Shown: piece after piece, positions 6,061 to 14,481 of the stretch
Numbering within the stretch: position 1 is the first letter of the stretch
Layout: each line of letters begins with the position of its first letter
NCBI RefSeq assembly: GCF_008806325.1
Contig: NZ_WACR01000006.1
Coordinates: forward strand, 124,001-188,000
DNA: 64,000 nt
Direction of reading: 5' to 3'
Source: Salibacter halophilus
Lineage (GTDB): Bacteria; Bacteroidota; Bacteroidia; Flavobacteriales_G; Salibacteraceae
The notes under the pieces: generated by a model
Told to the model about the DNA's origin: nothing
The model's input: the letters and a program-made list of their open reading frames with translations, nothing else
Database searches by the model: none
Made by a program: the position numbers and the translations under genes

Positions 6061-7185
6061 CTATTTTTGAAATAGATCGATGTAATCTTTAAAAATATAT
6101 ACTTTTCCTCTTTGTGAACTGGTCATCTCCTGAATCACATTCGCTTTTTCCAGGTCTTTAATTAGTTGATAGGCAGAAACCTTAGATTTATCTATTATGT
6201 TTTTTACACTTTCAGCATCTATAATTGGATTGCTGTACAATGCCTCTACTACCTTTTTTCCATCTCCTGAGCGCCCTTTCAATGTGCTTAACCTTTCATC
6301 TATAGATTTTTGGAGCTGTAAAATTCCATCAAATGAAGAAACTCCTTTTCTTGCTGTTTCTATGACACCTGTCAAAAAGAATTTAAACCACTGATTGATG
6401 TCATTTTTTGTTCTCACCCTCATTAAGTTGTCATAGTAAAGCTCCCTGTGATTCTCGAAAAAATCAGAAAGATAGAGGATGGGCTGTTTCAGGATTTCCT
6501 GACTTACCAGGTATAGCGTTATCAATAACCTTCCAATTCTTCCGTTTCCATCTAAAAAAGGGTGAATTGTTTCAAATTGATAGTGAATTAGTGCTATTTT
6601 CAATAAATCAGGCATGGGGTTTTGAAGATCGTTAGCAAATTTTTCCAAATCATTCATCAGGCCTGGAATCTCTTCATGTGGTGGCGGGATGAATAATGCA
6701 TCATTGAGTGTGGCGCCACCTATCCAGTTTTGACTTCGCCTGTATTCGCCCGGTAACTTTTGCTGACCTCTCACTCCTTGTAACAATACTTTGTGCGTGA
6801 GTTTTATTAATCTACTTGAAAACGGAAGGGTGTGAAGCTGTCTTATAGCCTCATCCATTGCTGAGATATAATTTTGAACCTCTTCCCAGTCGTTTCGCTT
6901 TTCTTCTGCTATATCGCCTCGTTTGAGAAATGCTTCTTCTATATTGGTTTGAGTTCCTTCGATTTTTGTAGACTGGGTTGCCTCTTTTGTAATATGCATC
7001 CTGATGTATAAATCAATATTGATGTATTCAGAATACATATCCAGCCTGCCCAGTAATCTATCTGCCTTACTGAGCAGCTCAAGCACTTCCATGTCATCAA
7101 TTTTCCAGCTCTGATTTATTCCGTTTGGAATAAAAGCGCTGTAATAACCCTGACTGATAACTTTTCCGGCACTAAAGTTTTTCAT
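6061..7185 (-). CDS. Fic-domain protein, class II, with C-terminal winged helix
   Basis: 374-residue Fic protein. The core motif HPFLDGNGRIGR begins at His208, the expected AMP-transfer catalytic residue. Upstream, STKIEG at about residues 72-77 matches the inhibitory-helix pattern (S/T)xxxE(G/N), with the Glu expected to block ATP gamma-phosphate placement; its position before the core makes this class II. A C-terminal segment (about 305-374) reads like a winged-helix DNA-binding domain. Family knowledge says such proteins AMPylate proteins and are autoinhibited. The upstream region carries repeated TTAACT/AGTTAAG elements, suggesting autoregulation (inference). No antitoxin partner is adjacent, so I do not call it a toxin-antitoxin pair. 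Confidence 0.92.
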   Translation of the reverse strand: MKNFSAGKVISQGYYSAFIPNGINQSWKIDDMEVLELLSKADRLLGRLDMYSEYINIDLYIRMHITKEATQSTKIEGTQTNIEEAFLKRGDIAEEKRNDWEEVQNYISAMDEAIRQLHTLPFSSRLIKLTHKVLLQGVRGQQKLPGEYRRSQNWIGGATLNDALFIPPPHEEIPGLMNDLEKFANDLQNPMPDLLKIALIHYQFETIHPFLDGNGRIGRLLITLYLVSQEILKQPILYLSDFFENHRELYYDNLMRVRTKNDINQWFKFFLTGVIETARKGVSSFDGILQLQKSIDERLSTLKGRSGDGKKVVEALYSNPIIDAESVKNIIDKSKVSAYQLIKDLEKANVIQEMTSSQRGKVYIFKDYIDLFQK

Positions 7186-11221: not shown

Positions 11222-12598
11222 ATGAGTGTGATAGAATCTGTCGTTAAAGATCAAAAAAATTATTTCTACAGCGGTGTTACCCGATCGGCAAAATTCCGGA
11301 AACAACAATTGAGAACGCTAAAGCGCGCTATTCAGAACCATGAGCAGCAACTTCACGAGGCCATGAAAGCTGATTTTCAAAAGCCAGAGTTTGAGAGTTT
11401 CGTCTCTGAAACAGGCTATCTGCTGCGCGATATCGATCACACACTCAACCATCTCGATGACTGGATGAAGCCCGAGAAAAAATCATCTTCTCTTTTGAGC
11501 GCTCCATCAAAAAGCTATGTCATGCGAGAACCTTATGGTGTTTCGTTGATCATCGCTCCGTGGAATTACCCGGTTCAGTTGGGCCTGGCTCCGGCTATTG
11601 GTGCTATTGCTGCCGGAAACACGATTGTTTTGAAACCGTCTGAAATGACACCCAACACTTCACGGGCGCTGGAAAAAATGATCGATGAGTTTTTCGACAG
11701 GCAGTTTTTCACCGTTGTGCAGGGAGCAGTTGACGAAACGAACGAACTTCTCGCTCAACCGATTGACAAAATCTTTTTCACCGGTAGTCCGGCAGTTGGG
11801 AAAATCATCATGAAGGCTGCGGCTGAGAACCTGACACCGCTGACACTCGAGCTCGGAGGTAAATCTCCCGCGATAGTTGATGAAACGGCTTCAATCAAAA
11901 CTGCTGCAAAACGCATAGCCAGCGGTAAATTTTTCAATGCCGGGCAAACCTGCGTGGCACCGGATTATATCCTTGTGCACGATTCGGTTTCCCGAAAACT
12001 GATTGAGGAACTTGAAAAAGCGATTCACTCATTTTTCGGTCAGAGCCCAAAGGACAGCCCTGATCTAGCCCGCATCGTCAACGAAAAACACTTTGACAGA
12101 CTCAAAGCGGGTCTGGATGGTGTAAAGGTTTTGATCGGTGGTGGATCTGACCGGGATGAAAGATACATCGAGCCAACGGTTGTCACAGATGTGCCGGAAG
12201 ATCACATGTTGTGGAACGATGAAATTTTTGGTCCGATCCTTCCCATTTTCACTTATTCATCGATTAAAGAAGTAGTAGAAATTATTCGCAGCAAACCCAA
12301 GCCACTGGCATATTACCATTTCACGCGAGACAGTAAATTGAAAAAAGAATTGCTGGAAAAGCTTTCATTTGGTGGAGGCACGATCAACGATACGCTGGAA
12401 CACCTTATTCAGCCCGATTTGCCATTTGGCGGAGTTGGGTTCAGCGGAATGGGAAATTACCACGGAGAAGACAGCTTTTTGGCCTTTTCTCACCGGAAAA
12501 GCATTTTGGAAAAGTCTGACAAGGTAGATGTTCCATTAAAGTATCCGCCTTACAAAGGAAAACTGAAGTGGTTGAAGCGATTGTTTAAATGGATATAA
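11222..12598 (+). CDS. Aldehyde dehydrogenase (class 3-like)
   Basis: NAD(P)-dependent oxidation of an aldehyde to its acid. Counting from ATG 11222 (458 residues), the general base Glu210 lies in LELGGKSPA and the nucleophile Cys244 in FNAGQTCVAPD, 34 residues apart as in the family. The N-terminal IIAPWNYPVQLGLAP block and lack of a long linker match class 3-type fatty-aldehyde enzymes, and the C-terminus is basic with Trp residues, perhaps membrane-associating. A TTG at 11183 opens the frame earlier, but ATG 11222 fits family length. Substrate unknown. The stop abuts a terminator that reads the other way. Confidence 0.93.
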   Translation: MSVIESVVKDQKNYFYSGVTRSAKFRKQQLRTLKRAIQNHEQQLHEAMKADFQKPEFESFVSETGYLLRDIDHTLNHLDDWMKPEKKSSSLLSAPSKSYVMREPYGVSLIIAPWNYPVQLGLAPAIGAIAAGNTIVLKPSEMTPNTSRALEKMIDEFFDRQFFTVVQGAVDETNELLAQPIDKIFFTGSPAVGKIIMKAAAENLTPLTLELGGKSPAIVDETASIKTAAKRIASGKFFNAGQTCVAPDYILVHDSVSRKLIEELEKAIHSFFGQSPKDSPDLARIVNEKHFDRLKAGLDGVKVLIGGGSDRDERYIEPTVVTDVPEDHMLWNDEIFGPILPIFTYSSIKEVVEIIRSKPKPLAYYHFTRDSKLKKELLEKLSFGGGTINDTLEHLIQPDLPFGGVGFSGMGNYHGEDSFLAFSHRKSILEKSDKVDVPLKYPPYKGKLKWLKRLFKWI

Positions 12599-12634
12599 AA
12601 AAAGCCCCTGCGAGCATTCGCTGCTGGCAGGAGC
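12597..12634 (-). terminator. Rho-independent terminator for a minus-strand transcript
   Basis: On the minus strand an 8-bp stem (GCTCCTGC with GCAGGGGC, one G-U pair; plus-strand 12604-12611 and 12627-12634) continues inward after a C-C mismatch with AGCA/TGCT around the loop GCGAA and is followed at once by seven T residues. The plus strand has no T-tract after the hairpin, so it ends transcription coming from about 12.9 kb, not the aldehyde dehydrogenase mRNA. Confidence 0.85.
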
Positions 12635-12733
12635 TCCGAAATCCTTGTATTTGAATTCAGTTAAAAAACTAAACCCAAATTATATGATCGTTATCAGGTA
12701 ACGAAAAAGCATACAAGGCTTTCGCGTTGTAGC

Positions 12734-12805
12734 TTAGAACGCCAATAAATTAGCGTTCAACATATTTAAATTACCTGATTTAGACGATTTCTTGACTGAT
12801 GACAT
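12734..12805 (-). CDS. Possible 23-residue small protein inside the structured RNA
   Basis: ATG at 12805, stop TAA at 12736-12734. The predicted peptide begins MSSVKKSSKSGNLNM and ends LLAF: Ser/Lys-rich, then Asn/Leu-rich, with no membrane segment. A full AAGGAGG Shine-Dalgarno sequence sits at 12819-12813, 7 bases before the ATG, which stands out because most genes in this window have no such site. The last codons and the stop lie within or next to a hairpin, and codons 10-12 form one arm of a 9-bp helix. It could be a leader peptide, a dual-function RNA product, or a chance ORF. Confidence 0.4.
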   Translation of the reverse strand: MSSVKKSSKSGNLNMLNANLLAF

Positions 12806-12935
12806 TACACCGCCTCCTTTCTTATTAGTGCGACTTCACTCAACAATTTTCGTCAAGTACCTTATGACTACTCTCTTGATGAGCCGCTGGATTCTCCAGC
12901 TCGAATTGTTGGTCTAAAGTAACACCTTATTACAG

Positions 12936-13143
12936 ATTTTCAAACTTTAAATCCAACAGGTTTTCAAACGCTGGTTGGTGATATTTTGTTTTATGGATTT
13001 AAACTTTCTTCATAAAAGCACATATAGAAAGAAAAGAGCCTGTAGAGTTTAGTTAAGCAAAAAAACCTCCTAACAATTTGTTAATCCATTAACCTGTAGT
13101 AATCGAGCGCAGTTTTCTGTAGTTTTAAACAAAAATTACATCT
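12936..13143. other. Gene-free region upstream of phoH-type gene
   Basis: No ORF of note. CTGTAG occurs three times (about 13039, 13093 and 13117), at 54- and 24-base spacing, within 110 bases upstream of the PhoH-family start. The stretch must hold the promoters of both the PhoH gene (plus) and the candidate RNA (minus). I see a loose minus-strand TTTG...TAAAGTTTG arrangement near 12970-12942 but no clean consensus box. Confidence 0.35.
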
Positions 13144-14481
13144 ATGCCCAGGAAAAAGAAACAGCGCAAGATTTACGTTTTTGACACTTCCGTAATTCTC
13201 TACGATCACAACGCCATCAAAAACTTTGAAGATAATGATGTAGCTATTCCCATTACGGTTTTAGAAGAGCTGGACAACTTCAAAAAGGGAAGTGACACCC
13301 GTAATTATGAAGCTCGTGAGTTTATCAGGATTATCGATAAATTATCTGAGAAGAACTCTTTGCAAAAGTGGAACCCCATCAATGGGAAGTCAAAAGGGAA
13401 ATTTAAAGTTGTGATGAATGGGCAGTCGCCAACGAACAAAACCGACTCGATTTTTGGCACGAACAAGAACGATCACAAAATCCTGAATGCGGCTCTGACC
13501 ATGGCACAGGAAGAGCCTGATGCAAGGGTAACGCTAGTCACAAAAGACATCAACCTCAGGCTAAAAGCAAAGTCTCTCGATCTCAATGCTGAGGATTACG
13601 AAACGGGTAAGGTCAAGGATTTGCAAAATCTTTACACCGGAAAAACGCAGGTTGATGATGTTGAACAGGAACTGATTGACGCTCTCTTTCAGGAAGGAAA
13701 GGTCCCGGCTGAGGATTTTGAAAAAATTACATTCCACCCGAATCACTACTACATTTTAAAAGGGAAGAGAAGTTCGGTTTTGGCTTATTACAATCCGGTT
13801 CTCAAGCAAATGGAGCGAGTTGAAAAACGCTCTTGCTATGGTGTGAGTCCGAGAAATGCTGAGCAGACTTTCTCTATTCACGCAATGCTGAATGAAAATG
13901 TAAAACTGGTAACCTTACAGGGTGTAGCCGGAACCGGAAAAACGTTGTTATCACTCGCTTCATCTATTGAGCAGCGAAAAGAATTCAAGCAGATTTACCT
14001 CGCCAGGCCAATCGTACCGTTGAGCAATAAAGACATCGGTTATTTACCGGGCGATGTAAAATCGAAGATCAATCCGTACATGGAGCCGCTCTGGGATAAC
14101 CTCAAGTTCATCAAAAATCAATGGCCAGAGACGGATCGTCATTACAAGCGCATCGAGGACATGGTTAACAAAGAAAAGATTTTGGTGACTCCGTTGGCTT
14201 ACATCAGAGGGCGCAGCTTGTCAAATGTGATTTTTATCGTTGATGAGGCTCAGAACCTTACTCCGCACGAGGTGAAGTCGATTATCACACGAGCCGGAGA
14301 AAACACGAAAATGATCTTTTCGGGGGATATTTACCAAATTGATACGCCATACCTCGATGAGCAATCAAATGGCTTGTCATACCTCATCGACAAGCTAAAA
14401 GGGCACGAGTTGTTTTCACACATCACACTGGAAAAAGGAGAACGGTCAGATCTCGCCAATTTGGCAAACGAGATGCTCTAA
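13144..14481 (+). CDS. PhoH-family ATPase with N-terminal PIN domain
   Basis: 445-residue protein of the PhoH2/YlaK type. The N-terminal PIN ribonuclease-like domain (about 5-150) begins KIYVFDTSVILYDH with the first acidic residue, followed by ITVLEELDNFK and TLVTKDINLRLKA with further acidic residues. The C-terminal PhoH ATPase domain has Walker A GVAGTGKT at about 260-267 and Walker B FIVDEAQN near 363. Related PIN-PhoH proteins act as RNA helicase/ribonucleases. The start ATG at 13144 gives normal length. The 3' end overlaps the convergent membrane-protein gene by 4 bases. Confidence 0.93.
   Translation: MPRKKKQRKIYVFDTSVILYDHNAIKNFEDNDVAIPITVLEELDNFKKGSDTRNYEAREFIRIIDKLSEKNSLQKWNPINGKSKGKFKVVMNGQSPTNKTDSIFGTNKNDHKILNAALTMAQEEPDARVTLVTKDINLRLKAKSLDLNAEDYETGKVKDLQNLYTGKTQVDDVEQELIDALFQEGKVPAEDFEKITFHPNHYYILKGKRSSVLAYYNPVLKQMERVEKRSCYGVSPRNAEQTFSIHAMLNENVKLVTLQGVAGTGKTLLSLASSIEQRKEFKQIYLARPIVPLSNKDIGYLPGDVKSKINPYMEPLWDNLKFIKNQWPETDRHYKRIEDMVNKEKILVTPLAYIRGRSLSNVIFIVDEAQNLTPHEVKSIITRAGENTKMIFSGDIYQIDTPYLDEQSNGLSYLIDKLKGHELFSHITLEKGERSDLANLANEML

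Follow-up and report, generated by a model that had tools for sequence, protein, structure and literature searches.

In Bacteroidia the anti-Shine-Dalgarno sequence (anti-SD) of the 16S rRNA is concealed in a pocket of bS21, bS18 and bS6, and extended Shine-Dalgarno sequences (SDs) are preferred by ribosomes without bS21 (PMC9976891). The rpsU mRNA is autoregulated by such ribosomes and its SDs amount to -14 to -21 kcal/mol, and a genome screen found SD-dependent control in Flavobacteriales to be limited to this gene (PMC9976891). Strong SDs are otherwise reported for rpsU because bS21 helps to hide the anti-SD in Bacteroidia, and the strong SD of the RNA described here, from Salibacter halophilus, is odd since Bacteroidia normally ignore such sites. 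The RNA and the rpsU mRNA each carry an extended SD of one strength class, in organisms where SDs otherwise see little use. They differ in that the SD of the RNA sits in a covarying structure, that rpsU loci lack the 5' domain, and that bS21 is not encoded, the peptide of the 19-25-codon ORF having no Pfam match. As a stand-alone unit with a promoter motif, a short ORF, structure and a terminator, the RNA also resembles dual-function sRNAs, but its ORF is one strand of the fold and its kind of SD is rare in the phylum. With Hok-like type I toxin mRNAs it shares a tiny ORF, a tight fold and long-range closure, whereas its SD is predicted to be free rather than hidden and its peptides are not hydrophobic. 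Leader-peptide attenuators likewise combine a short ORF with stems and a terminator, but in most copies of the RNA no sense gene follows.

The window, that is, the whole stretch of 64,000 nucleotides that was analysed (positions 124,001 to 188,000 of contig NZ_WACR01000006.1), contains the RNA on its minus strand, flanked by two plus-strand genes: that for an aldehyde dehydrogenase ends at 12598, and that for a PIN-PhoH protein starts at 13144. The minus strand of 12593-12945 folded with an energy of -112.1 kcal/mol and a z-score of -7.39, with 0 of 100 dinucleotide shuffles as good, compared to a z-score of -5.47 for the plus strand of the same segment. The sequence contains an intrinsic terminator (12597-12634), consisting of a hairpin (12604-12634) with a run of seven Ts directly 3' of the stem (12603-12597); since the T-run is found only on the minus strand, the terminator should function only for a minus-strand transcript. 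Inverted repeats were confirmed for P3b (AUCAGGUAAU with GUUACCUGAU), P4 (GAACGC..GCGUUC), P6 and the terminator stem. Searches of the RNA against Rfam 15 (riboswitches, tmRNA, RNase P, 6S, SRP and others) yielded no family at or above the gathering score and, with permissive thresholds, no related family either, and ARAGORN identified no tRNA or tmRNA.

The preliminary description of this locus, made from the sequence alone, had proposed a minus-strand structured RNA with four inverted repeats and a terminator that makes sense only for that strand, and had found no match to tmRNA, RNase P, 6S, SRP or a known riboswitch. The results above support each of these points, and covariation in relatives adds to the evidence for structure. 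The same description had called the stretch gene-free and overlooked both an extended SD and the 23-codon ORF behind it (12734-12805, minus strand). Judged from the comparative data, the stretch at about 12909-12600 is a real and conserved structured RNA of about 310 nt. The family is absent from Rfam 15 and undescribed in the open-access PMC text searched, which does not exclude a description elsewhere.

The SD, AAGAAAGGAGG (12823-12813), follows an A-rich unstructured stretch and is separated by a 7-base spacer from the ORF, MSSVKKSSKSGNLNMLNANLLAF (12805-12734; 23 codons and a stop). Its pairing with the 3' end of the organism's own 16S rRNA, ..AACACCUCCUUUCU, for which the exact mature end was assumed, extends over 10 continuous base pairs with an energy of -17.2 kcal/mol, and meets the criterion for an rpsU-type SD of at least 9 consecutive base pairs at about -14 kcal/mol or stronger. 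For comparison, the mean for 56 ORFs in the window was -3.3 kcal/mol (sd 3.0) and the value for the organism's own rpsU was -20.6 kcal/mol. Among scored window ORFs of at least 120 amino acids, the strongest SD pairing (-12.6 kcal/mol, at the putative start) belonged to a 374-amino-acid ORF on the minus strand at about 6061-7185. The genome-wide rarity of such SDs was judged by a pattern search: GAAAGGAGG followed by ATG 3-12 bases later occurs at four sites in the whole genome, namely the tiny ORF, rpsU and two sites within open coding frames, so that the tiny ORF and rpsU are the only instances outside coding frames. We fetched 60 other such sites in the order; these were mostly within open frames and none formed a comparable unit. 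In many of 99 genomes of the class, AAGAAAGGAGG seemed rarer than its reversed control, in agreement with the published avoidance of SD-like sequences, but no statistics were applied.

Copies were gathered by Blast, by patterns, by a series of three covariance models that covered the 5' domain and SD, and by an SD scan of fetched loci. This yielded 44 copies in 43 genomes from at least five families of Bacteroidia: 9 genomes in the organism's own family (f1), 27 in f51, which tentatively looks like Hymenobacteraceae, 5 in f4 and one each in f32 and f83. Named records matched in f1 were Cryomorphaceae, Crocinitomicaceae and Flavobacteriales MAGs. Each copy consists of a 5' hairpin domain, the extended SD, the ORF and a closed 3' fold, followed by the terminator. 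There is one copy per genome except for G009, which has two in a duplicated segment. This segment, with an aldehyde dehydrogenase gene, a TetR-like gene, the RNA and phoH, occurs twice (L181, L188), and in one of the duplicates several genes separate the RNA from phoH. No copy was detected in half of the f1 genera, for which either absence or low sensitivity may be responsible, and the R3 model identified nothing at the phoH loci of genera without a match. Weak model matches in G387, G282, G168, G438 and G553 were rejected upon inspection, as were matches in the class below 28 bits (except G124), because they lacked the complete unit of SD, ORF and terminator.

The SD reads GAAAGGAGG in 43 of the 44 copies and GAAAGGGGG in the remaining one, and its pairing with the 16S tail of the respective genome ranged from -16.1 to -20.7 kcal/mol. 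All copies have a start codon 4-8 bases 3' of the SD (40 AUG, 4 GUG), and their ORFs end with a stop after 19-25 codons. This uniformity was partly imposed, since the collecting script required 17-27 codons and a spacing of 3-9 bases, yet every copy found by structure complied. The peptides were similar within families and barely so between families, with GRAVY values of -0.61 to 0.52 and mostly positive charge; several f1 peptides start with MxSxKKS. Variation at the three codon positions in 20 ORFs from f51 was 4/4/10. The conservation of the ORF and the codon-position bias favour translation without proving it.

The 5' domain contains hairpin H1 (12886-12900), helix H2a (5' arm 12879-12884, 3' arm 12838-12843) and hairpin H2b (12852-12868), the UAAGGU-like loop of which is common to f1 and f51. 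For an alignment of 7 sequences produced solely by MAFFT, onto which the structure was drawn by hand, 91% of the cells in H1, H2a and H2b were paired. With 11 sequences, two-sided changes were observed at 16 of 16 pairs and the covariation score was 0.900 versus 0.235 for shuffled data; with 37 sequences, 89% of the cells were paired, all 16 pairs again showed two-sided changes (including 6 of 6 in H1 and 4 of 4 in H2b), and the score was 0.759 versus 0.214. Both of the larger alignments were fitted to the model and are thus biased towards its structure. Sliding the partners in the 37-sequence alignment gave scores of at most 0.181. The preliminary description had named conditions that would refute the RNA; those that can be computed, a lack of conserved covariation in relatives and a match to a known family, both failed. 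The junction-closing helix of 8 base pairs given there, CAACAAUU/AAUUGUUG (12904-12911 with 12839-12846), was discarded as the closure of the RNA: it is not conserved, it overlaps the predicted start site, and it is mutually exclusive with the covarying H2a. No conserved pseudoknot with the UAAGGU loop was found by eye. The R3 model reached at most 13 bits at rpsU loci, indicating that the 5' domain is not common to rpsU.

The copies fold 3' of the SD into one closed, branched domain that extends from codons 3-7 to just 5' of the terminator, with z-scores of -1.8 to -8.9 for 21 copies. Terminators were detected by script in most of the copies folded; for several in which none was found, a fixed segment of 197 bases, terminator included, was folded instead. 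The closing helix, P3a, joins an early-codon element (GAAAUC, 12786-12791) to GAUUUC (12638-12643) within AAGGAUUUC, an AAGGAUU/GGAAU-like element present beside the terminator in most copies. By inspection, the pairing of this helix is restored in divergent copies (AUAUCC::GGAUAU, ACCCA::UGGGU, GUUCC::GGAAU, AAUCC::GGAUU), while five copies from the organism's own family have the same or almost the same helix sequence, which is therefore uninformative. The outer helix P3b, with its 5' arm within the ORF (12770-12779) and its 3' arm at 12693-12702, is fully rewritten among the S. halophilus copy, G001/G002, G009 and G006 with the pairing retained. The folds further placed hairpin P4 at the end of the ORF (12737-12758), P5 3' of the stop codon (12709-12733) and P6 at 12649-12680; no counterpart of P6 was found in G001, G002 or G009.

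The f51 counterpart of P4 covaries: position 3 of codon 16 and position 2 of codon 21 form C-G, A-U or U-A pairs in 20 of 20 ORFs, valine 16 is constant, and residue 21 is G, V or E. Since residue 21 varies while the RNA pair is kept, RNA pairing overrides peptide identity at this site. Support for the 3' domain comes from the folds of individual copies and one f51 alignment, without a single covariance model for the whole domain. Only 6 of 47 pairs in this alignment showed two-sided changes, as most columns are invariant.

A motif resembling TTTG-N17-22-TAnnTTTG precedes H1 at a near-constant distance to the SD in most copies, with a mean score of 8.6 compared to 6.8 for mononucleotide shuffles. 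In the window, the motif scan placed a putative Bacteroidota-type promoter, TTTG-N19-TACTTTAG, with its -33 box (TTTG) at 12941-12944 and its -7 box (TACTTTAG) at 12914-12921. Using the published position of the -7 box relative to the transcription start (PMC9723704), a transcript of about 310 nt is predicted to start near 12909, for which there is no experimental evidence.

In f1, 9 of the 10 copies have a convergent gene downstream, the exception being G006 with ileS in the sense direction after the terminator, and convergent genes also follow in f51, where the single chromosomal copy has a stable place and the same convergent neighbour family occurs at 24 loci. Sense genes are often located downstream in f4 and f32, past a terminator. 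The convergent genes suggest that the unit mostly stands alone, with nothing to control in cis in most copies. The divergent PIN-PhoH gene adjoins the RNA in several f1 copies, but not in G015 or G033, nor outside f1. In G337, a cobalamin riboswitch (L220, 1191-1417) lies on the same strand shortly 3' of the f4 copy and is a separate element.

Comparative evidence thus establishes the structured family, the SD and the ORF, while the promoter and the terminator are predicted from motifs. Because the SD is of the rpsU class, we propose a ribosome-gated RNA: a stand-alone small structured mRNA gated by translation and opened mainly by 30S subunits whose anti-SD is exposed, a reading in which our confidence is about even. 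The 5' hairpin domain would present an unstructured, A-rich landing strip and the SD, and the body of the ORF together with the sequences after the stop and before the terminator would make up one closed 3' domain. Since the closing helix lies in or just 3' of the first codons, it is expected to face competition from an initiating 30S subunit, and the 3' fold should melt as about 20 codons are translated. As the anti-SD is sequestered by bS21, bS18 and bS6, we infer that the gate, as for rpsU, is open mainly to bS21-poor or immature 30S subunits. Ribosome entry would switch the RNA from a closed to an open, translated form, with altered RNA stability, altered activity in trans or a peptide as possible outputs. 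Translation in vivo, the dependence on bS21, the gate and the output are all inferences made without transcript or ribosome data. It is possible, but doubtful, that the fold of this widespread RNA opens solely to 30S subunits with a free anti-SD and that the RNA thereby senses ribosome composition, reporting a shortage of bS21 or immature ribosomes and acting in trans on other targets. If so, SD-dependent control would reach beyond the ribosomal-protein genes where SDs have been reported. A tiny ORF with an rpsU-like SD, kept in at least five families within a covarying structured RNA, would extend the rpsU-only picture of PMC9976891 and provide specialised ribosomes without bS21 with a natural second client, and the RNA adds a structured family missing from Rfam.

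The retention of the ORF in all 44 copies, the third-position bias and conserved residues in f51, and the MxSxKKS start in several f1 copies are also expected if the peptide itself is the product. In this reading, a regulatory or signalling micropeptide is made from an ordinary small mRNA, whose structure serves only to tune expression or stability. We consider this unlikely, since the peptides are almost wholly different between families and without a Pfam match, and the changes between G, V and E at residue 21 in f51 preserve the RNA pair. The opposite emphasis, with the ORF as a by-product, is to view the RNA as a docking or decoy site that uses its SD-like stretch to catch 30S subunits whose 16S tail is free, or that aids maturation of the 16S 3' end. 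In other bacteria, PhoH-like proteins have been connected with the maturation of 16S rRNA, and the adjoining phoH gene in several f1 copies fits such a role, as does a 10-bp complement to the 16S tail between two structured domains. Given that every copy retains the start codon, its spacing of 4-8 bases and an ORF length of 19-25 codons, and that phoH is not adjacent in G015, G033 or outside f1, this too seems improbable.

We give little credence to a type I toxin-antitoxin system, with a toxic peptide restrained by an antisense RNA: a short ORF within a tightly folded mRNA is present, but the peptides do not meet the criterion of a hydrophobic membrane peptide, and the f51 element is a single chromosomal copy in a stable place. 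The preliminary description had called the junction riboswitch-like, and the short ORF, hairpins and terminator do resemble leader peptides, with a sense gene downstream in G006 and in most f4 and f32 copies. Control of a gene downstream by a leader, attenuator or riboswitch is nevertheless very unlikely, and we rejected this reading, since most copies, including 9 of 10 in f1 and those at the f51 loci with the conserved neighbour, have no sense gene downstream; nor does any Rfam leader or riboswitch match the unit. Finally, the S. halophilus copy is intergenic and ends beside a convergent gene, as would a chance fold around a terminator shared by convergent genes. The covariation in 37 sequences we count as already refuting this idea, and the SD and ORF in 44 copies and the T-run on the minus strand only leave it practically no room.

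The comparison to rpsU was extended to individual genomes. The rpsU genes of S. halophilus, G005 and G013 have strong SDs, while those of G006, G003 and G015 (L083, L084, L097) have none (-0.5 to -2.8 kcal/mol). G006 and G015 retain the SD of the RNA, showing that the SDs of the RNA and of rpsU are not strictly coupled.
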